Part shown: piece after piece, positions 5,694 through 16,232 of the stretch
Numbering within the stretch: position 1 is the first letter of the stretch
How the letters are laid out: each line of letters starts with the position of its first letter
IMG/VR virus record: IMGVR_UViG_3300035670_001316
Location: 1-22,658 of that record
Source: a virus
Length of the DNA stretch: 22,658 nucleotides
Direction: 5' to 3' (one strand)
The notes under the pieces: model-generated
What the model was told of the DNA's origin: nothing
The model's database searches: none
The model's input: the letters and a program-made list of their open reading frames with translations, nothing else
Program-made: the position numbers and the translations under genes

Positions 5694-5711
5694 GGGGGGC
5701 CGTTCAAGACT
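5694..5711. repeat. 18-bp direct repeat, copy 1 (flanks the C5 methyltransferase gene)
   Basis: The 18 bases GGGGGGCCGTTCAAGACT occur here and again, identically, at 6670-6687, 976 bp apart. This copy covers the last codons and stop of the C5-methyltransferase gene; the other lies just after the stop of the upstream Mom-like gene. Together they bracket the whole methyltransferase unit. Confidence 0.85.
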
Positions 5712-6624
5712 CGGCCTCGGCCTCGGCAATCCTGCTCCCGATCCATCGCATCACGGGGACGGCCATCGAGTTACCGCAGGCCTTGTACCTCGGGCCGTTG
5801 GCCGCGGGCTTGCCTCGATACGGGACGAGGGTCCAGTCGTCCGGGAATCCCTGCAACCGCTCGCACTCTCTCGGGGTCAGGCGTCGGACGCCTTGATGAA
5901 GGACTCCGGCGTACATGCTGGTCCCGAGAGCCGGGGATACCGGGCCGCTGATCGGGTCTTGCGTTGCGTGGAAGGCAATCAGGGTCTCGGTCTCTGCGTC
6001 ATAACGCTTTCCAGTGCCTGTCGTAGGGCATGCGGCAACTTGAACTTGCGGGCCTCGGCCCTGCGAAGGATACCCTCGCACGCTCTCGGGCTCAAAAAGA
6101 ACTCTTGCGGCACGGGCTCCGTCTCCAAGATGTCCGACAACGAAGACGCGACGGCGTCGTTGGGGAACTCCGAAGTACTGAGCGTCAAGGACCCGGTAGG
6201 CCCACCCATACCCGAGTTCTGCCAACGCCCCGAGGAAGGAACCAAAGTCCCGTCCGCCGTTCGATGACAAGACACCGGGGACGTTTTCCCAGACGATCCA
6301 TCGAGGCCGGGCGATGCTGGCAATCCGCAAGAATATGAGTGCAAGGTTGCCTCTGGGATCCTCCAAGCCTCCGCGAAGTCCGGCGACTGAGAAGGACTGA
6401 CAGGGGGTTCCACCGACCAGAAGGTCAATTGCGTCACGTTGAAACTCCTCTTTCTCGTGAATGGTAGTCATGTCCCCGAGGTTCGGCACGGCTGGGAATC
6501 TGTGCGCCAGCACCGCCGAAGGGAACGCGTCAATCTCCGAGAACCACGCGGGCTGCCAGCCCAGAGGCTCCCATGCAACGCTTGCGGCCTCGATGCCGCT
6601 ACAAACCGAACCGTATCTCATCAT
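5704..6624 (-). CDS. DNA (cytosine-5) methyltransferase
   Basis: 306 aa. Transfers methyl from S-adenosylmethionine to C5 of cytosine in DNA; in a phage this normally shields the genome from host restriction. All core motifs are visible: I (SVCSGIEAASVAWE), IV with the catalytic Cys (GGTPCQSFS, PCQ at 74-76), VI (WENVPGV), VIII (QRRRRVFVVG), IX (TPRECERLQGFP) and X (YKACGNSMAVPVMRWIG). The target-recognition region between VIII and IX is short (about 75 residues), so the recognition site is probably short. Two adjacent ATGs exist (6624, 6621); family N-termini usually read MRY, and 6621 gives the better 9-base spacing from GAAGGAG. The gene is flanked by an 18-bp direct repeat. Confidence 0.92.
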   Translation of the reverse strand: MMRYGSVCSGIEAASVAWEPLGWQPAWFSEIDAFPSAVLAHRFPAVPNLGDMTTIHEKEEFQRDAIDLLVGGTPCQSFSVAGLRGGLEDPRGNLALIFLRIASIARPRWIVWENVPGVLSSNGGRDFGSFLGALAELGYGWAYRVLDAQYFGVPQRRRRVFVVGHLGDGARAARVLFEPESVRGYPSQGRGPQVQVAACPTTGTGKRYDAETETLIAFHATQDPISGPVSPALGTSMYAGVLHQGVRRLTPRECERLQGFPDDWTLVPYRGKPAANGPRYKACGNSMAVPVMRWIGSRIAEAEAES

Positions 6625-6692: not shown

Positions 6693-7373
6693 TTAGAAAA
6701 GCGTCAAAGGAACAGGCATCACAATAGGAGCACCGTCGTCGTACCGCGTGGCGTCGGCCTTAGGGTAGGCGTTGACTACAGGGTAAGACAGCTTCGCCAG
6801 CATCACCGATCGCTCGCGTCTGTTGCCGATCAACTTAAAGTAACGGTGCTTCTGCATCGGCGGCACCATCTCGATGCCGTTGGTCTTAGCCCATGCGGTC
6901 GGGTTCGTGATGCCCATATCACGAAGGGTCATCGGGTGCAGTCGCTTGCCGTCCACGATATACGCCTTGTCGTGGCTGACGGTGGCTCCGGTATAGATCC
7001 AGTTGGTTGCCTGATAGACAATGCCCGCATGCCCCATCTCGCTGTCCGCGTAACTGACGACCGCGCATGGCTGGCTTGCCAGCATCCGCAGACTGTTGCC
7101 GATTAGAAAGCTCGCAGCGTTGCGAGTCTTGGTCTGTACCACAAGGCGGGTCAACTCGTACAGCCGGAAGTCACGGTCACGGAAAGCATGACGCTGAATC
7201 GGTGGACTTGGTTGACCGTACACGACGACGCCTTGAACGTGGCCATCCTCGACAAGCGCGAAGGCCTCCCAGAACACGGAAGGCCTTCGGCTGTAGTGCT
7301 TGACCGAGACAAACGTCTCGGCCACCTGCTTGGTCGTGCGTACTACTTGCACAGACGCACCATTGTTCCCCAT
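6693..7373 (-). CDS. Mom/XF1762-like putative DNA-modification protein (GNAT-like)
   Basis: 226 aa. The pattern HYSRRPSVFWEAFALVEDG, GVVVYGQPSPPIQ, YELTRLVVQTKTRNAASFLI, VVSYADSEMGHAGIVYQATN and WIYTG is what I associate with the GNAT-like family that includes phage Mu Mom (adenine methylcarbamoylation) and XF1762-type proteins. The acceptor here is therefore likely to be DNA, with an anti-restriction role; that is inference from family memory and from its neighbours, a C5 methyltransferase directly downstream and another methyltransferase nearby. ATG 7373 overlaps the upstream gene by 31 bases and has only CAGGG upstream; GTG 7352 is an alternative. Base composition is somewhat less GC-rich than the head genes. 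Confidence 0.65.
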   Translation of the reverse strand: MGNNGASVQVVRTTKQVAETFVSVKHYSRRPSVFWEAFALVEDGHVQGVVVYGQPSPPIQRHAFRDRDFRLYELTRLVVQTKTRNAASFLIGNSLRMLASQPCAVVSYADSEMGHAGIVYQATNWIYTGATVSHDKAYIVDGKRLHPMTLRDMGITNPTAWAKTNGIEMVPPMQKHRYFKLIGNRRERSVMLAKLSYPVVNAYPKADATRYDDGAPIVMPVPLTLF

Positions 7374-7646: not shown

Positions 7647-8804
7647 TCAGGACATCCCGACATCCGCCGATCCGAGCCCGCGGTGAGCATAGACAAGGGC
7701 ATCGACCATGTCGTCATGGTCCGCGACAGGGAAGCCCAGGAGCTCCCGCGAGAAGTCCGGGGGCAGGTCCGGGGCCAGAGTGACGAGGCCTTGCTCGAAC
7801 CGAGCCTGAATCCCGGTAAACCGGGTCACCTTGTCCTTGTCCGGACGGACCCCGACGACCGGAAGGTCCGTCGTCCGCAGAAGCTCGGTGACCACGGCCG
7901 CCTGAAACTGGACTTGCTCGACCGCGACGACTTGCGGACGCCACTTCCCCGCGAAGGCCTTGATGAACCCTAGCACCCCGTGGAAGGGCATCCGGCCCCG
8001 GGCCACGTCGAGGACATACAAGGCCCCGGTCCTGTCCCGACCGAGGGCGACCGCCGCAGTCCAGTCGGCCCCGTCCTTCGTCGAGATCGCGAGGTCCACC
8101 CCGACCGAGACATCGAGGTCTTCCCGGGCCGGGGGCTCGCCGACCCGGATCCATTCCCGCCGGAGCAGGGCACCAGCCGCCGAAACGAACTCGGCACCGA
8201 ACTCCCGACGGAAGACGATCGCGGGCAGGCTCGACCGGGCCGCGTCGACCTCGGCCTCGTCGAGATGCGGATTCGTCCAGGATGGCAGGCACCAGGACCG
8301 GACCTCGGGGTCTTCCCCCTGCCCCTTCTGGACGAGCTCATGGAACCATCCCCCCTCGACATTCGGGGTCGAGATGATGACCGCCTTCCCCTTCCGATCC
8401 GCGAGGGCCGGACGAAGGACCTCTTCCCAGACCCGCCGGGGCACGAAGTCCGCCTCATCGAGGACAAGGAAGTCCAGCCCCTCGCCTCGCAGGTTGTCCG
8501 GGTTATCCGCTGACTTGCAAGCGATGATGCCCCCGCTCGGGAACCGTAGAGTTCGGGTCGACTCGTGAGCCTGAGCACCGACCGCCCGGGACATCACCCG
8601 GAGCATCTCCCACGCGATGCCCGAGATAGCGTACGTCGGGGCCACCCACCATGATTTGCGGCCTTCGAGGGCCATCCGCAGAGCCAGGACGACCCCGAGC
8701 CGGGTCTTCCCCCACCGCCTGCCGCAGACCAAGACCCGGAACCGAGCGGGGTCCCGGGCAACCGCGGCTTGCGCCTCGTGGAGTTCCGGCAACCGGATGA
8801 TCAA
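7647..8804 (-). CDS. terL: Terminase large subunit (packaging ATPase and nuclease)
   Basis: 385 aa from TTG 8804. ATPase: Walker A GRRWGKT at about 28-34 and Walker B LVLDEAD at 113-119, followed by the coupling motif IISTP. RNase-H-like nuclease: GVDLAIS (Asp 237), AVEQ (Glu 296) and DHDDMVDAL near the end. It drives headful or site-specific DNA packaging with the portal. I chose TTG 8804 because it overlaps the stop of a 35-codon gene as TTGA and gives the usual terminase N-terminus (IIRLPELHEAQ); ATG 8891 in the same frame would add 29 unusual residues and has its AAGG directly against the start. Confidence 0.9.
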   Translation of the reverse strand: MIIRLPELHEAQAAVARDPARFRVLVCGRRWGKTRLGVVLALRMALEGRKSWWVAPTYAISGIAWEMLRVMSRAVGAQAHESTRTLRFPSGGIIACKSADNPDNLRGEGLDFLVLDEADFVPRRVWEEVLRPALADRKGKAVIISTPNVEGGWFHELVQKGQGEDPEVRSWCLPSWTNPHLDEAEVDAARSSLPAIVFRREFGAEFVSAAGALLRREWIRVGEPPAREDLDVSVGVDLAISTKDGADWTAAVALGRDRTGALYVLDVARGRMPFHGVLGFIKAFAGKWRPQVVAVEQVQFQAAVVTELLRTTDLPVVGVRPDKDKVTRFTGIQARFEQGLVTLAPDLPPDFSRELLGFPVADHDDMVDALVYAHRGLGSADVGMS

Positions 8805-8908
8805 CAACCACCGCCCGAGGCAATCGCCACCATGACCGCGACATGACCCGATAGGATCAAGATGAGCGAGACCGTATCCCCGAGGGTCCATCCTTGGTCT
8901 GCGGTCAT
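8801..8908 (-). CDS. 35-residue single-membrane-segment microprotein
   Basis: ATG 8908 overlaps the methyltransferase stop as ATGA and its own stop overlaps the terminase TTG as TTGA, exactly the coupling used by other genes here. The product begins MTADQGWTLGDTV and continues LILILSGHVAVMVAIASGG, one convincing membrane segment, ending GGGC. I do not recognise it. Its role is unknown; candidates are a small lysis-timing or membrane-targeted effector, or just a coupling peptide. Too short for statistical support, so the case rests on the double overlap and the clean hydrophobic segment. Confidence 0.5.
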   Translation of the reverse strand: MTADQGWTLGDTVSLILILSGHVAVMVAIASGGGC

Positions 8909-10068
8909 GCGAAGAGCCTCAGTTGCTCGCCGTCGGCCTTGCGGCCCGGGGCAGGGGACGCCGGGATCTCAAAGACCTGCCCGGTCTTGACCGCGGCTGC
9001 CTTGATCCGGGCCTCGGCAATCGCCGCATATTCTGGGGACAGTTCGCACCCGATGAACCGCATTCCCTCGAGGACGGCCGCCTTGCCCGTCGAGCCGGAC
9101 CCCGTGAACGGGTCGAGGACCAGACCGCCCGGGGGCGTGACGAGACGGACCAGATAGCGCATGAGATCGGTCGGCTTGACCGTGGGGTGGACGTTCTTCC
9201 GCTCGACAGGTGCCCATCGCGGGTCATTCTCAAGCCCGCCAGGATTTACTCGGTTGAACGTCCGATCGTCCCACGCCTCCATGCCCTCGTCCCGGTCGGC
9301 CTTGCTTGCCTTGGCCGAGTAGAAGAAGCGGGCAGCGGAGCCGGAGTCGCCATACCCTCCGGCACCTGCCCCTAAGGTATTTCCGAAAGACCATGTTGCC
9401 GGTCGCGTTTTACTTCCAACACCAGGGGTTAGACCTCCAGTCGATTTGCCGACATCAGGAAACATACCCACGACCTCCTCGCTCCCATCGTGGATGACGT
9501 TCGCGGGCCAGCGGCCTGCGTCAAGTTGCGTGATCGTAACCTTTCCGCCGATGCCTTTGAACATTCCGTCTTGATATTTTGGCTTGTCATCTGCCCTTGT
9601 GCCGCCTTGCGTCCCCACCCTGCACCCGTCCACGTTGATCGCCCCGGTCCCGTAGGCCATCACGTTCTGCGCCACCGTGCCCCGCAGCGGCTTGCGCGCC
9701 ATGACGATGGGTTCGTACGCCGGTTTTAGCGCGGTCCCCCATCCTTTCCACGCGCCGTCAAGGTTGTGAGATTTCGGGAATCCTGCACCAAAAATCCACA
9801 TGAGGCATTCTCTAAGGGTCAACCCGGCATCCTCGATGGCACAAGCAAGTCGGTGATAAGTTCTCGGTGCACCGAACGCGAGAAGATGGCCGCCGGGCTT
9901 CAAGACCCGCAGGCACTCGCGCCAGACATCGAGGTCATACGCGATGCCTGACGCGTCCCAGGACTTCCCCATGAACCCGAGTTCGTACGGGGGGTCCGTG
10001 ACGATGGAATCGACCGACTCGGTATCAAGCTCCCGGAGTCGAGCCCGGCAGTCCCCTACGAGGATCAT
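8905..10068 (-). CDS. DNA methyltransferase, beta class (N6-adenine or N4-cytosine)
   Basis: 387 aa, ATG 10068 overlapping the upstream stop as ATGA. Motif order is that of beta-class enzymes: catalytic motif IV TDPPYELGF first (DPPY at 25-28) and the SAM-binding motif I LDPFTGSGST late (319-328), preceded by HPTVKPTDLMRYL and followed by GCELSPEYAAIA. The middle (about 130-270) is the target-recognition region. It methylates the amino group of adenine or cytosine; DPPY is more often adenine. The gene is inserted between the small and large terminase genes, so modification and packaging would be co-expressed. Confidence 0.9.
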   Translation of the reverse strand: MILVGDCRARLRELDTESVDSIVTDPPYELGFMGKSWDASGIAYDLDVWRECLRVLKPGGHLLAFGAPRTYHRLACAIEDAGLTLRECLMWIFGAGFPKSHNLDGAWKGWGTALKPAYEPIVMARKPLRGTVAQNVMAYGTGAINVDGCRVGTQGGTRADDKPKYQDGMFKGIGGKVTITQLDAGRWPANVIHDGSEEVVGMFPDVGKSTGGLTPGVGSKTRPATWSFGNTLGAGAGGYGDSGSAARFFYSAKASKADRDEGMEAWDDRTFNRVNPGGLENDPRWAPVERKNVHPTVKPTDLMRYLVRLVTPPGGLVLDPFTGSGSTGKAAVLEGMRFIGCELSPEYAAIAEARIKAAAVKTGQVFEIPASPAPGRKADGEQLRLFA

Positions 10069-10424
10069 GCATTCCCGCCTTCCTCATCCGCCCACTTGAT
10101 CACGACCTCGGTCTTGTCCGCGCCCTCGGGCCTGCGGTCCTGCCTGCCGAATCGGTCCGGACTCTTCCGTTCGAGGTACCACGCCGCCGCGGTCCAAGTC
10201 TTGTCGGCGAGGGCCGCTTCCCGGATGCAGGCAAGCATCTCGGCCTCGGCCTCACCCTCGGCCGCTTTTACGTCGTCGGCGAAGTCGGGGTCGGCCTTGA
10301 TCCACTCGTAGAAGAAGTCCTTCGAGACCCCTGCCGCCCGGCACGCGGTCTCGTGGTAGTTCCCCGCCCGGATATACCGGAGCAGGGCTTCCCTGACCTC
10401 TGGGGTCCGCTTGGTCTTAGCCAT
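10065..10424 (-). CDS. Putative terminase small subunit (helix-turn-helix)
   Basis: 119 aa from ATG 10424 (GGAAGGA upstream, 8-base overlap with the previous gene). The N-terminal region, TPEVREALLRYIRAGNYHET followed by ACRAAGVSKDFFYEWIKADP, is a helix-turn-helix of the kind seen in small terminases; the central acidic helix and the TWTAAAWYLERKSPDRFGR stretch are common in phage small-terminase-like proteins. It would recognise the packaging site and recruit the large subunit. In most phages the two subunits are adjacent; here a methyltransferase separates them. It could instead be a generic phage HTH protein. Confidence 0.7.
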   Translation of the reverse strand: MAKTKRTPEVREALLRYIRAGNYHETACRAAGVSKDFFYEWIKADPDFADDVKAAEGEAEAEMLACIREAALADKTWTAAAWYLERKSPDRFGRQDRRPEGADKTEVVIKWADEEGGNA

Positions 10425-10752
10425 GATCCTTCCCTCTCTTCTTGCGGTCCGGGTCGGCGACTTCCGAGATCCGCACCTGCCCCCGCTCGGTCTTCCACCG
10501 TGCGACGAGACCATCCTTCGCCCTCATGAACATCACCCGGACCGGGGTCGCATCACCGATACCCGGGGTCAACTCGGGCAAGTGCTCAAGGACGACCGCA
10601 GCCAGGCTCTCGGGGTCCTTCTCGATTCGCTTGCTCGTCGCCTTGTCGATCTCGCCCGCGATGCCGAGGGTGATATCCCCTTCCTCGGTCTGGCCGATTT
10701 GAAACTCGATGCCCTGAGCCACAAGCGACCGGAACAGGGACAAGGCGTTCAT
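10417..10752 (-). CDS. TubC-docking-like phage protein (111 aa)
   Basis: ATG 10752 overlaps the previous stop as ATGA, with GGGGGAGA upstream. The first 60 residues (MNALSLFRSLVAQGIEFQIG, then ITLGIAGEIDKATSKRIEKD and SLAAVVLEHL) follow the helix, two strands, helix, helix layout of TubC N-terminal docking-domain-like proteins, which turn up as small phage proteins of unknown role. The rest is basic at its end (DPDRKKRGKDHG). A second protein of similar layout is at 11553. Functional meaning in phages is not established, and the family call is from pattern memory. Confidence 0.65.
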   Translation of the reverse strand: MNALSLFRSLVAQGIEFQIGQTEEGDITLGIAGEIDKATSKRIEKDPESLAAVVLEHLPELTPGIGDATPVRVMFMRAKDGLVARWKTERGQVRISEVADPDRKKRGKDHG

Positions 10753-11552: not shown

Positions 11553-11885
11553 CTAGCACCCCCCGTGACCTCTCGCGGCTTCTAGGGGCTCGTAGCGGGT
11601 CCGGTTCTCTGCTTGCCACTGCGTGAACCATCGGACGATGCCTTCCCGATGATGCCGGAGTCGGTCGAGGATGTCACCGGGTACCTCGCGGTCGCCCGTG
11701 GTCAAGAGCATCCGTCCGAGGTCGTCGAACTCGAACCACGCGTCGGCCGCGATGACATCGAGGATCAACTCGGCAATCTCGCGTGACCCGGCCTCTGGGG
11801 TCCAGCTATCGATCGCCGTCTCTCGGGTCCACTCGGACGAGTCCACAAGGACGGGTCCGGCTGGGGTTCCTGGTCTCTTTCTCAT
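11553..11885 (-). CDS. TubC-docking-like phage protein (110 aa), first gene left of the origin
   Basis: ATG 11885, 10 bases after the GAAGGAG loop of an RBS hairpin. The central region SREIAELILDVIAADAWFEF, DDLGRMLLTTGDREVPGDIL and LDRLRHHREGIVRWFTQWQA matches the layout of TubC N-terminal docking-like domains (helix, beta-hairpin, then P-x-x-L-x-x-L helices with a conserved HR pair). Such domains are frequent next to phage replication genes but their role is not known. The N-terminal 35 residues look flexible. It starts directly beside the dyad-symmetric origin candidate. Confidence 0.7.
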   Translation of the reverse strand: MRKRPGTPAGPVLVDSSEWTRETAIDSWTPEAGSREIAELILDVIAADAWFEFDDLGRMLLTTGDREVPGDILDRLRHHREGIVRWFTQWQAENRTRYEPLEAARGHGGC

Positions 11886-11910: not shown

Positions 11911-12150
11911 TGGGACGCGCTGGGACGCGCTGGGACGTAAAAAACGGCCTCAAAGCCAGTGGTGGTGCGGGTCTCTCGATTTTACGTCCACGTCCAAGCC
12001 AAAAAGCCTTTATATTTATGTCTCTCTTACCTTCTCTAATTTTCTCATGCATAGTTTTTTCGTAGGGACGGGGACGTAAAACAGTAGAACCCGCATCCTG
12101 ATTGAGTTTCAGGCACTTTTTTACGTCCCCCAGCGTCCCCCACGTCCCAG
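11911..12150. other. Probable replication origin: 240-bp dyad of GGGACG iterons around an AT/pyrimidine-rich core
   Basis: Centred at 12030.5. Left arm: three 10-bp-phased GGGACG units (11912, 11922, 11932), the last followed by TAAAAAA, then two inverted CGTCC units (11985, 11991). Right arm mirrors it: two GGGACG units (12065, 12071) followed by TAAAA, then TTTTTTACGTCCCC (12117) and two more inverted units (12134, 12143). Counting by eye, about 62 of 90 positions match between 11921-12010 and its mirror. The middle about 50 bases (12001-12050) are AT-rich and, on the plus strand, pyrimidine-biased. It starts four bases after the primase-helicase stop. Iterons beside an AT-rich unwinding region next to the initiator/primase gene are classic origin features; the precise dyad is unusual. 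Confidence 0.7.
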
Positions 12151-12153
12151 AAC

Positions 12154-14307
12154 TCAATGGAGTTTAAGCCCTTCGACGACCCGCGGCCGTGGCCCGTCGG
12201 TGCCTGGACGCTTGATGTCCTTCTTGAAGTGCCGCTCGATCTCGGCCTCGAAGGTGCGAATAGCGAGCGGGTGATACCCGTTCGTCCCGCACCAAGTCCG
12301 ATAGTCTTCGTGAAGCTTTGCGACCTCGACCACCCCGAACCCGGTCTCCTTGATGCGATCGTCGGCCCACTGAAGGAACGGATTCACGGCCTCGCGATAC
12401 ATGGTCTTGGCGTTGCTCATCTCCAGCGACTCGCCGAGCCCGTCGGCCTTGAGCTGTTCAAGCCCGTCGATCGCCCAGTTGAAGATGCCGGGCAACTCGG
12501 CCCGAAGCTTGTCTAGGATGCCGTAGTCTTTGTCCTCCTCCCGGATCTTCGTGTTGAAGGGGAAGATCATCAGCCGCCGCCAGATCGCATCGGTCCGGTC
12601 CGAGAACCGTGGTAGGACGTTCGTCGAGAAGGTCAATCGAGCGGTCGGGACATCCTGGTACGAGTCACGATACTTCCGCTCGAAGGTCATTTCCTCGCCC
12701 GAGATGAGTTGCTTTAGGATCCCCTCGGCAGCCTTGTCGAGCTCGCCCATCTCGTGTGCGATGTTGGCCGACTTGCCGACCATCGCCGCGAGGTCGAACC
12801 GTTCCCCGAACCGCTCGAGCGGGACCGTCGAGTAGTTCCCCCGGCCGACCAGTTCTTGAAGGATGAGCAGGACGGTCGACTTGCCGTTCGACCCGTCGCC
12901 GACGAGGACCGCGGCCTTCTGGTAGGAGACATCCGGGATCAAGTTAAGCCCGAACCATCGCTTGAGTTGGTCGCGAGTCCCCGGGTCCGGGACGATCTTC
13001 TCGATGACCGAGAGCCACAATGGACAGTCCGCGTCCGGGTCGACCTCGAAGGGGACACACACCGTCGACAGGAGCCCCGGGTCGTGCGGCCGCAACCAGT
13101 CCGGCCGCTCTTCGAGGTACGCCTTGACGTCGACAATCCCATTCTTCGCCACGATGGACAGGGGCCCGCCGTCTATCCACTCGCCATGGTTTACCGAGGC
13201 CGGGATCCGGACCCGAGTCGCGATGTTGGCGACGACATCCCCGACGAAGGCCCGCTTGCACTTGCTCGCGAGGTCCGGGGCCTGCTGCATCCTGCCGAGG
13301 ACTTCGTGACCGACGTCCTCCTCGGTCGTGGCCTCGTAGCACTTGCCGTTGAACCTGTACCAAAAGCCCTTATGCAAGACGAAGGGCCGATCCTCGACCG
13401 CCTCAAGGAATGCAGTCGCGACACTGATCGGCTCGATCTTGTCCTTCTTCCCGTCGCCCTCGGGCTCGGGCATCCTCAGCCCAGAGGCCAGCCCGACCCG
13501 GACAGTCCTTGCCGCTGTCCCGGGTGCGAACCCATCGACGATGCGTTCGGCCATGTCGACGATGACCCGATCCGGCAAGGGGGGAATGACCGCGGTCTCA
13601 TTGGTCGACCGTAGGGCCGCGAGGATTGCCTCGTACCCGAGACCCGCCGCCCGCATCGAGCTCCCGAGCGACCAGACCGCTTGATTCCTCCCGCCCTCGC
13701 GGATGACGCCGTCCTCGTCTGCCCGTACCTTAGACCCTGCGTTTTCCGGTTTCTTGATGTTCCTAAGGGCCTCGTCGAGCCACGCCGGGACGGGTTGCGG
13801 TCCGTCGGCCGACTCGACATCGACCGCGTACATGCGCCCGGTCTTGTGGATTGACCCGGGGGCCACGACGAACCCCCGCTCGCCGCGGACATCGACGCCC
13901 GAGGCCACGAGACCCGCCGAGTTCCGAACATCCCATCCGGGGTGCTGGTAGTAGACGTGCGCCCCGCGCCCGGTACGGACCATGAAGAATGGTCGGTCCT
14001 GGTTGCGATTCTCGAACCAGACGACCGCGTCCTCGTTGTCGAGGTCGAGCAACAGTAGCCCGGTATCCGCCCCGGTCACAATTCCCGCGTTCCGACCGTC
14101 CCGGTACCACTGGGCCGCCTTGGTCGAGTCGTGCTGGGCACCGGGGGCCTGCCATCCCCGGTCGATCGGATGCTTGCCTTGCGACTCGCAATCCGGACGG
14201 CCGCAAGTGCACCGTCCGTCGGGCCTGACATGGTGCACCGCGATGAAGACTTGGCCGAGCCCTGCGACGGACTCGAGCTCTCTCAATCGACTGTCAATGG
14301 GGTACAA
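12154..14307 (-). CDS. Bifunctional primase-polymerase / SF3 (D5-like) helicase
   Basis: 717 aa. N-terminal PrimPol domain (about 15-185): zinc-like CTCGRPDC, the metal-binding LLLDLDNE (DLD 88-90), GRGAHVYY and VRGERGFVVAPGSIH. Linker with the usual primase-associated alpha region to about 300. SF3 helicase: Walker A GDGSNGKS (470-477), B-region NIAHEMGELDK, sensor LTFSTNVLP and arginine finger AIWRRLMIF. C-terminal winged helix (about 640-717), likely DNA binding. It would recognise the origin, unwind it and prime synthesis, like P4 alpha-type proteins. Start is TTG 14307 with AGGAGA 8 bases upstream; no ATG nearby fits. The gene ends right at the origin candidate. Confidence 0.9.
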   Translation of the reverse strand: MYPIDSRLRELESVAGLGQVFIAVHHVRPDGRCTCGRPDCESQGKHPIDRGWQAPGAQHDSTKAAQWYRDGRNAGIVTGADTGLLLLDLDNEDAVVWFENRNQDRPFFMVRTGRGAHVYYQHPGWDVRNSAGLVASGVDVRGERGFVVAPGSIHKTGRMYAVDVESADGPQPVPAWLDEALRNIKKPENAGSKVRADEDGVIREGGRNQAVWSLGSSMRAAGLGYEAILAALRSTNETAVIPPLPDRVIVDMAERIVDGFAPGTAARTVRVGLASGLRMPEPEGDGKKDKIEPISVATAFLEAVEDRPFVLHKGFWYRFNGKCYEATTEEDVGHEVLGRMQQAPDLASKCKRAFVGDVVANIATRVRIPASVNHGEWIDGGPLSIVAKNGIVDVKAYLEERPDWLRPHDPGLLSTVCVPFEVDPDADCPLWLSVIEKIVPDPGTRDQLKRWFGLNLIPDVSYQKAAVLVGDGSNGKSTVLLILQELVGRGNYSTVPLERFGERFDLAAMVGKSANIAHEMGELDKAAEGILKQLISGEEMTFERKYRDSYQDVPTARLTFSTNVLPRFSDRTDAIWRRLMIFPFNTKIREEDKDYGILDKLRAELPGIFNWAIDGLEQLKADGLGESLEMSNAKTMYREAVNPFLQWADDRIKETGFGVVEVAKLHEDYRTWCGTNGYHPLAIRTFEAEIERHFKKDIKRPGTDGPRPRVVEGLKLH

Positions 14308-14397: not shown

Positions 14398-14814
14398 TTA
14401 GAACGGGATCTTGTTCGCGGCCTTCTTCATGGCCGCGGGGTCCGGAAGGACTGCCTCGACCTTGGTCCGCGCCGTGCCATTGGCCGAGACCTTCTCGCGG
14501 ATCTCGACATAGCACGCCTTGCCGATAAGACCCGCGATGTCCGGGTCACCGTCGGCGTCGACGCCGTCCCATGGCTTGTTGCCGTTGAGTGCCTTGCCCC
14601 ATGCGAAGGCCTTGGACTTCTCGCTCCACGCCTGCGAGGTCGACCCCGAGACGTTCGCCCCCGAGTGCTCGCCGTCGGTGATCAAGAAGACCCACTCGAC
14701 AATATCAACCGGGCCGTCCGTCGTCGTAACGGTCTTTGCATCGAGGCCCGTCAAGGTCGCCTCGTACGTCCCCGCGGGGACCTGGGCGAAGGTAGTCGTT
14801 CGCTTCATCTTCAT
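14398..14814 (-). CDS. DUF669-like putative single-stranded-DNA-binding protein
   Basis: 138 aa, ATG 14814 (or the second ATG two codons on), weak AAGCAGG upstream. The order AQVPAGTYEATLTGLDAKTV, DIVEWVFLITDGEHSGANVS and KAFAWGKALNGNKP is that of DUF669-type phage proteins, small beta-barrels usually placed in replication clusters and taken to bind ssDNA. The tail (MKKAANKIPF) resembles the short hydrophobic protein-docking tips of SSB proteins. It sits between the nuclease-HIRAN gene and the primase-helicase, which fits a replication or recombination role. Confidence 0.65.
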   Translation of the reverse strand: MKMKRTTTFAQVPAGTYEATLTGLDAKTVTTTDGPVDIVEWVFLITDGEHSGANVSGSTSQAWSEKSKAFAWGKALNGNKPWDGVDADGDPDIAGLIGKACYVEIREKVSANGTARTKVEAVLPDPAAMKKAANKIPF

Positions 14815-14829
14815 GTGTTGCCTGCTTTC

Positions 14830-15876
14830 TTACAGATCCGAGCCGTGAAGCTCGATCTCGATGTTGAGTCCGTGGTTCTTGCCGGGACCACCCCCGGTTA
14901 TCTCGGTCACCCGGCAGGAGGCCGTTCCGCCTGCTGCCAAGTGATCCGAGACGATCTCTGCCGTCGGGCTACCCGTCGCCGGGAGGAACCCGATGTGATG
15001 GCCTTCCGCGATGACCTTGACGGCCACCGCGGTCCCGTCGGCCCTGCGGGGACCGTGCGGATTGTCTTTGTCCCACTCGAGGACGAGGGCCGACCCTGCG
15101 GCCAAGACCTCGGGCCAGTTGAACCCGCCGTCCCGGAAGGTTGTCCCGACGACCTTTGAGTTGATGTGCCGCCACTCGCGCGCCGATGCCTTGGCATCCT
15201 GGACGAGGGCCGCCTGACACGCGGCCTTGTGATCGCACCATCGACATTCGATGACCTGCTCATAGCGGGGAAGAGTTCCGGCCTTGACGTGGTCGAGGAT
15301 GAACTGGGCCTTCTCGTCCATCTCGGCCGCGAGTGCCGGGTCAACGTCAAAGGGCAGAACCTGAAACGTCGGGTTCAAGTCCTTGTCTGCCTTCATCCCT
15401 GCGGGGATGGTGCCGTTCTTGTTGACGTAGACGATCGCCCCGAAGGGGCATCCTGCCTGTACCGCGTACCAGTTCGCTTGCGCGACGTGCTCGGGCTTGG
15501 GGCCCTTCTTGGCGACCTCGAGGTATCCCTCGACGTTGATCGTCTTGATGTCGGCTAGGACGTACGATGCGCCGTCCCGGATGATCCGAAGGTCCGAATG
15601 CCCGGTCATTGTGCCGGAGTCCCACGCTTCCTCGGCCGGGACCTCGGGAAGCTTGCCCTGGATGATCTCGTGGATTGCCGTGCCCACCGCGAAGGCAAGA
15701 GCGGTCTTGGGGTTGAGCTCAAAGGTCTCTTCCGGGTCGAGCCTAGACGCGAGGACCTGGGCTCGTCCGCACCGATGGATGCCGGACGGACGGACCTTCC
15801 ACGCGCCCCGGGGCCGGACGGCCAGCCTCCGGAGCGATTCTTCGATGATGTTCTCGACAATGACGCGGGCCGTCAT
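14830..15876 (-). CDS. PD-(D/E)XK (Cas4/AddB-like) nuclease fused to a HIRAN domain
   Basis: 348 aa, ATG 15876 overlapping the upstream stop as ATGA. Residues 1-225 are a PD-(D/E)XK exonuclease: GTAIHEII (His 69), GHSDLRI (Asp 95), ADIKT (Asp 109, Lys 111) and VAQANWY (Gln 133). Cys 36 plus CRWCDHKAAC (211, 214, 220) give the four-cysteine pattern of Cas4/AddB iron-sulfur nucleases. Residues about 238-325 match the HIRAN pattern: KVVGTTFRDGGF, LVLEWDKDNPHGPRRADGTA, VAVKVIAEGHHIGFLPA. HIRAN domains bind 3' ends of ssDNA, so the fusion would place the nuclease at DNA ends or stalled forks. It is followed by an ssDNA-binding-like protein, suggesting recombination-dependent replication. Confidence 0.82.
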   Translation of the reverse strand: MTARVIVENIIEESLRRLAVRPRGAWKVRPSGIHRCGRAQVLASRLDPEETFELNPKTALAFAVGTAIHEIIQGKLPEVPAEEAWDSGTMTGHSDLRIIRDGASYVLADIKTINVEGYLEVAKKGPKPEHVAQANWYAVQAGCPFGAIVYVNKNGTIPAGMKADKDLNPTFQVLPFDVDPALAAEMDEKAQFILDHVKAGTLPRYEQVIECRWCDHKAACQAALVQDAKASAREWRHINSKVVGTTFRDGGFNWPEVLAAGSALVLEWDKDNPHGPRRADGTAVAVKVIAEGHHIGFLPATGSPTAEIVSDHLAAGGTASCRVTEITGGGPGKNHGLNIEIELHGSDL

Positions 15877-16232
15877 TCCGGCCTCCCTTCTGCGGTTGCG
15901 AACAGGACATGGGGCTCGGCCCACTTGGTCAAGGCCTCAAGGCCGTCGTACCACGCCTCATGGATGCGGGCATCACCGAGGACCTTCATGTCGTTTAGGC
16001 TGATCTCGCGGGCCATGAACTCCATCCCGGCGACCTTGACCCCGTAAGGCTCAATCCTGATCGAGGATACCGGGCCGGACGAGTTGACCGCCCACGAGGA
16101 GCCGTCCCGGTCGCCGCAGATCATCGCCTGGACAAAGTCGCCGATGACGTTGACGCAAACCGTCACCGCCTGACCGCCCCACCGAGGGGCCGGGATGGTG
16201 AAAGCGAAGGCATCAGAGACGTACTCAGTCAT
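15873..16232 (-). CDS. Conserved-looking protein of unknown function (119 aa)
   Basis: ATG 16232 overlaps the previous gene by 8 bases, with AAGGAAGAG upstream, and its stop overlaps the nuclease-HIRAN ATG. The chain alternates strands and one helix (FTIPAPRWGGQAVTVCVNVI, GPVSSIRIEPYGVKVAGMEF, then the helical IHEAWYDGLEALTKWAE). I do not recognise a family. Close coupling to the nuclease suggests a shared replication or recombination role, but nothing in the sequence proves it. Confidence 0.65.
   Translation of the reverse strand: MTEYVSDAFAFTIPAPRWGGQAVTVCVNVIGDFVQAMICGDRDGSSWAVNSSGPVSSIRIEPYGVKVAGMEFMAREISLNDMKVLGDARIHEAWYDGLEALTKWAEPHVLFATAEGRPE

Follow-up and report, generated by a model that had tools for sequence, protein, structure and literature searches.

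The SaPI/PICI replication origin consists of two iteron sets that flank an AT-rich region and lies 3' of the initiator gene (PMC6092414). The C-terminal domain of SaPI Rep recognises the iterons directly downstream of its own gene, and the protein is apparently present on them as two hexamers (PMC7581432). A 302-bp element of the Streptococcus thermophilus phage Sfi21 acts as an origin (cited in PMC6356513). In Streptococcus phage 2972, the noncoding region directly after the D5-type primase has two 57-nt arms that are 70% complementary and surround an AT-rich core, an architecture conserved in 48 Streptococcus phage records, and we infer that this region is an Sfi21-type origin. Two further systems are relevant, pRN1, where a stem-loop of 100 nt on the 3' side of the PrimPol gene is required, and the satellite phage P4, whose alpha protein is a self-sufficient primase-helicase with a C-terminal winged helix that binds origin repeats (PMC4234260).

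The window analysed here is a whole stretch of viral DNA of 22,658 nucleotides (IMGVR_UViG_3300035670_001316). At 11911-12150, directly 3' of a minus-strand gene for a fused PrimPol and D5/SF3 helicase, it carries a dyad of mirror-symmetric iteron arrays. The first-pass annotation considered the dyad a probable new type of origin, a description that is not supported, as the design is published for SaPI/PICI (PMC6092414) and is present in phage 2972.

The resemblance to SaPI/PICI lies in the position of the putative origin immediately 3' of the initiator gene, in the window and six relatives, in the iteron sets on both sides of an AT-rich region, and in the D5/SF3-type helicase initiator, the window protein being homologous to SaPI5 PriRep. 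Unlike these elements, the window comes from a tailed phage that itself encodes terminase, portal and head proteins, while PICI satellites are without structural genes of their own; the primase of the window is a fused PrimPol, and in each arm of the dyad a forward set lies outside and a reverse set inside. The pRN1 and BIP-1 systems share with the window a PrimPol, an SF3 helicase, a C-terminal DNA-binding domain (probable in the window) and an origin 3' of the gene (likewise probable in the window), but their origin is a stem-loop without iterons (PMC4234260). P4 alpha is likewise a primase-helicase initiator, but unlike the window PrimPol it has a Toprim-type primase (PMC4234260). The S. 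thermophilus phage origin differs from the window in its iteron sequence, its low GC content and its primase, which is not fused in the same way to a PrimPol. The iteron sequence and layout of P4 ori and crr also differ from those of the dyad.

Results

Architecture of the dyad

The dyad comprises the following elements.

11911..12150, no strand: whole dyad, mirror-symmetric iteron arrays, probable replication origin
11912..11937, plus strand: outer left iteron set, GGGACG at 11912, 11922 and 11932, in 10-bp phase
11985..11995, minus strand: inner left iteron set, CGTCC at 11985 and 11991, reverse
11996..12064, no strand: core, AT-rich and purine/pyrimidine-biased, probable melting site
12065..12076, plus strand: inner right iteron set, GGGACG at 12065 and 12071
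12124..12148, minus strand: outer right iteron set, CGTCCC at 12124, 12134 and 12143, reverse

The ten units, all GGACG, span 11912-12148, and their order, three forward, two reverse, AT-rich core, two forward and three reverse, was verified as first described. A 10-bp phasing had been proposed throughout; it holds approximately for the outer triplets (10 and 10 bp, 10 and 9 bp), but within the inner pairs the spacing is 6 bp. The dyad indeed adjoins the PrimPol-SF3 stop codon (12154-12156), at a distance of 3 bp on the 3' side of this minus-strand gene rather than the four bases given initially.

No other axis in the window mirrors as well as the one at 12030.5. Agreement, estimated by eye as about 62 of 90 positions, was computed as 60 of 86 beyond the central 48 bp, compared with 41 for the next best axis, an overall mean of 22.9 (sd 4.5) and a maximum of 46 in 60 triplet shuffles. 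An inverted-repeat search returned 84-nt arms, 71% complementary, separated by a 50-nt gap, and the density of GGGACG, eight units in 260 bp, exceeded the shuffle maximum of five. Within the core, AT content peaks at 74% over 50 bp. The dyad occurs once in the record, and no nucleotide relatives of it were found in annotated phages. An ACCCGC-like element is also mirrored in the window, at 11967 and 12089, and a short ACCCGC(A/G)TC recurs between the right-arm iteron sets in locus L006 and several relatives.

The initiator gene and its surroundings

The genes that bear on the interpretation are listed below.

12154..14307, minus strand: PrimPol and D5/SF3 helicase, 717 aa, probable initiator (Pfam Prim-Pol 9e-21, D5_N, DUF5906, Pox_D5; SaPI5 PriRep, 7ola, 1.6e-22)
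12157..12417, minus strand: codons 631-717, exchangeable C-terminal domain, probable iteron reader (includes the Pox_D5 match, aa 656-696)
11553..11885, minus strand: 110-aa ORF of no known family, downstream of the dyad
10065-10514: small terminase
7647-8891: large terminase
14398-14814, minus strand: weak SSB match, directly upstream of PrimPol
14830-15924, minus strand: Cas4-like exonuclease, upstream of PrimPol
6693-7373, minus strand: Mom-like DNA modification protein (phrog_1384, 3e-43)
5704-6624 and 8905-10068: DNA methyltransferase matches

SaPI5 PriRep was the sole solved structure matched by sequence, with the alignment extending across the helicase and the C-terminal tail. The AlphaFold2 model of the full-length initiator, made from a 7-row alignment, was uninformative (mean pLDDT 33); that of the C-terminal domain alone had a pLDDT of 58 and gave no significant Foldseek match. 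Because this model is poor, the winged-helix assignment rests on the Pfam Pox_D5 match and the SaPI5 alignment. A genome_contigs search found no relatives of the PrimPol.

Upstream of the PrimPol gene, the Cas4-like exonuclease and the weak SSB match (14398-15924) form a replication/recombination module. Past the 110-aa ORF the gene order is a RusA-type resolvase, then the small terminase. Matches to terminase, portal, head morphogenesis, head protease, major head protein and endolysin in the window identify a tailed phage, which, to judge from the Mom-like and methyltransferase matches, probably modifies its own DNA. A related contig, G002 (loci L026 and L027), carries 127-bp terminal repeats within its 32,567 bp and probably represents the entire genome, about 32.4 kb, of a member of this phage group.

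Co-variation of the iterons with the initiator's C-terminal domain

The comparison set consisted of six related loci and one contig 100% identical to the window. The layout directly past the PrimPol stop is common to the six relatives, with the unit order three forward, two reverse, core, forward, reverse, except that the distal reverse set is absent from L010, and the first three units have 9- and 10-bp spacing in all seven loci (the window and six relatives). Only in the window does the mirror extend through the intervening sequence; the relatives retain just the unit order. Every unit reads G[GT]ACG in the window versus G[GT]ACC (GGACC or GTACC) in the six relatives. Iteron conservation among relatives, which had been suggested as a check on the origin, was thus found in the layout but not in the unit sequence.

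The initiators of the window and locus L005 are 97.5% identical in amino acid sequence over residues 1-630 but 64% identical over 631-717. Window-private residues, defined as positions at which all others agree and the window differs, numbered 16 of 87 in the C-terminal part versus 6 of 630 before it (Fisher p 2e-11). DNA identity between the window and L005 or L008 dropped from about 90% to about 45-75% over the C-terminal codons and about 30-60% over the dyad, and was back to about 90% or more in the next gene past the dyad. Divergence at fourfold sites climbed less, from 29% to 46%; this smaller increase is compatible with rapid divergence as well as with recombination involving a diverged homologue, and the two may have acted together. 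However, the C-terminus of L005 and L008 is closer to more distant relatives (about 0.82) than to the window (0.64), which favours recombination. The DNA-reading tail and its landing sites look as if related phages had exchanged them as a unit. Since the iteron switch accompanies replacement of the C-terminal domain, that domain is most likely the iteron reader; the product of the 110-aa ORF probably does not have this role, as the ORF keeps its conservation across the switch.

Survey of iteron arrays in viral contigs

Viral contigs were scanned for three GGGACG units at 9-11-bp spacing, and D5/SF3 or VapE-type genes were sought with two self-built HMMs, A3 and A5; all figures refer to the matches listed. 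Among these, at least 27 loci, in at least 12 protein clusters, had both an array and an initiator gene, and in 11 of the 12 initiator clusters listed the array lay 0-500 bp downstream of the stop codon, compared with 1.7 expected for random placement. The A5 model was built from L045, L046 and L059, survey hits that were first noticed for their position, so two clusters are not independent of the position rule; when these were left out, the array followed the gene in 9 of 10 clusters among the matches listed. Pfam domains D5_N, DUF5906 or VapE were present in most of the linked proteins tested, while the 175-aa fragment from L178 gave no Pfam match.

At least two units on each strand were found in all 26 linked arrays but in 31 of 106 unlinked arrays, and the mirror-paired fraction was 0.71 versus 0.24, where linked means up to 1.1 kb from the gene, many survey loci are short, and the counts are again among the matches listed. 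The scrambled hexamer GGGCAG, planned as a negative control, also followed initiator genes, in 4 of 6 clusters among the matches listed with 0.4 expected; this was taken as evidence that the iteron sequence varies, the proper null being random placement. Array position and symmetry are general, the iteron sequence is not.

Individual loci illustrate the range. The array after the VapE-type gene of L059 has units at 17F, 26F, 36F and 62R, then 105F and 114F, the core, and 185R, 194R and 203R. The 855-aa PrimPol of L063, found solely through its iteron, has 27% identity over the helicase region and a similar arrangement. Twelve GGGAC units with near-perfect mirrored gaps lie about 375-645 bp past a D5-type gene in L085, L075 and L097; the gaps in L085 are 21, 11, 11, 32 and 9 on one side and 9, 32, 11, 11 and 20 on the other. 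Six loci (L045, L046, L047, L048, L051 and L058) have another conserved layout of mixed GGGACA/GGGACG units 299 bp past a VapE-type gene, which in L045 is Toprim-fused. In the Bacillus plasmid NZ_MF996511 (L065, 3739-4019), GGTTAATGA/TTAACC repeats surround an AT-rich core past a P4-type primase, an array that is probably of the same origin design.

The exact-hexamer test found no array after the D5-type gene in several Klebsiella, Salmonella, Vibrio, Microbacterium, Arthrobacter and Streptomyces phages. It scores zero for 2972 and L010 as well, and therefore misses degenerate arrays. A small Thermaerobacter plasmid and pMNOD03, which have related primases, had no clear array. The rule that an array follows the initiator gene is best called common, not universal, and the sequences compared suggest that the design is common in phages, with variable iterons.

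Discussion

With a probability of roughly 0.87, the dyad is the origin from which a small tailed phage replicates, used by the adjacent PrimPol-SF3 protein through C-terminal iteron binding, assembly on two arms, melting of the core and priming. That the origin is read by the neighbouring PrimPol-SF3 is well supported by the conserved layout, by the way the C-terminal domain and the iterons change in concert, and by the blind survey, in which arrays generally follow such genes; from these observations we infer origin activity and the individual steps. The C-terminal domain, Pox_D5/winged-helix-like, would bind the 9-10-bp-phased GGACG iterons, and the protein would assemble on the two opposed arms. 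The D5/SF3 helicase may then melt the AT-rich core, and the PrimPol domain would prime synthesis. Given the opposed orientation of the arms, two helicase rings could be loaded for a bidirectional start; by analogy, one helicase assembly per arm would agree with what is published for SaPI Rep (PMC7581432). The change in GC skew anticipated in the first-pass annotation was not seen: in the relative G002 neither overall nor third-position skew had a step at the element, a weak test because the genes are largely co-oriented.

Genes for the small (10065-10514) and large (7647-8891) terminase lie within 4.5 kb, so the dyad might instead be a packaging (pac/cos) site recognised by terminase. In L005 and L010, however, the element still adjoins the PrimPol stop despite extra sequence before the downstream genes, the iterons switch with the PrimPol C-terminus and not with the downstream genes, which are about 90% identical, and in the survey arrays of this kind go with initiator genes; a packaging site is extremely unlikely. 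An operator or terminator region that controls the downstream genes, with the initiator or a different regulator binding to it, would fit the location between apparently co-oriented genes and the three weak terminator-like matches in the region, and such a role is compatible with an origin too. Yet no sigma-70-like promoter match falls within the dyad, and ten units, placed in mirrored sets on either side of an AT-rich core, are more than an operator needs and match the published SaPI/PICI origins, making a purely regulatory element highly improbable.

A stem-loop origin of the kind proposed for pRN1 and BIP-1, in which extruded hairpins rather than iterons are recognised, is very unlikely, even though the window folds far better than its shuffles (z -7.9 for the whole dyad, -5.3 for the right arm) and the pRN1 stem-loop is likewise 3' of a PrimPol gene (PMC4234260). 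The arms of the relatives have z-scores from -3.7 to +0.5, while unit order and spacing persist, so that a large stem-loop is not a conserved feature of these loci, and inverted iterons yield stems as a by-product. The corresponding place in phage BIP-1 was inspected for hidden iterons and none were visible; the two designs therefore differ. Of the earlier suggestion that each arm could extrude a hairpin, the strong fold was borne out for the window but is not kept in the relatives.

The preferred reading, an iteron origin read by the C-terminal domain of the initiator, makes the window and its near relatives a natural domain-swap experiment, with near-identical initiators that differ in their C-terminal domains and iterons. 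Such pairs make the recognition code and the compatibility of phage replicons directly testable. A simple rule could find the origins of many environmental phages by sequence: search just past the gene for a D5/SF3 or VapE-type protein for an AT-rich core with mirrored 9-11-bp iterons on both sides. There is an even chance that mirror-symmetric iteron origins directly after D5/SF3 and VapE-type genes constitute a broad class among tailed phages. The C-terminal domain and the adjacent iterons would then be an exchangeable cassette whose specificity decides which replicons are compatible, and a single iteron base (GGACG versus GGACC) might correspond to a few residues in the recognition region.
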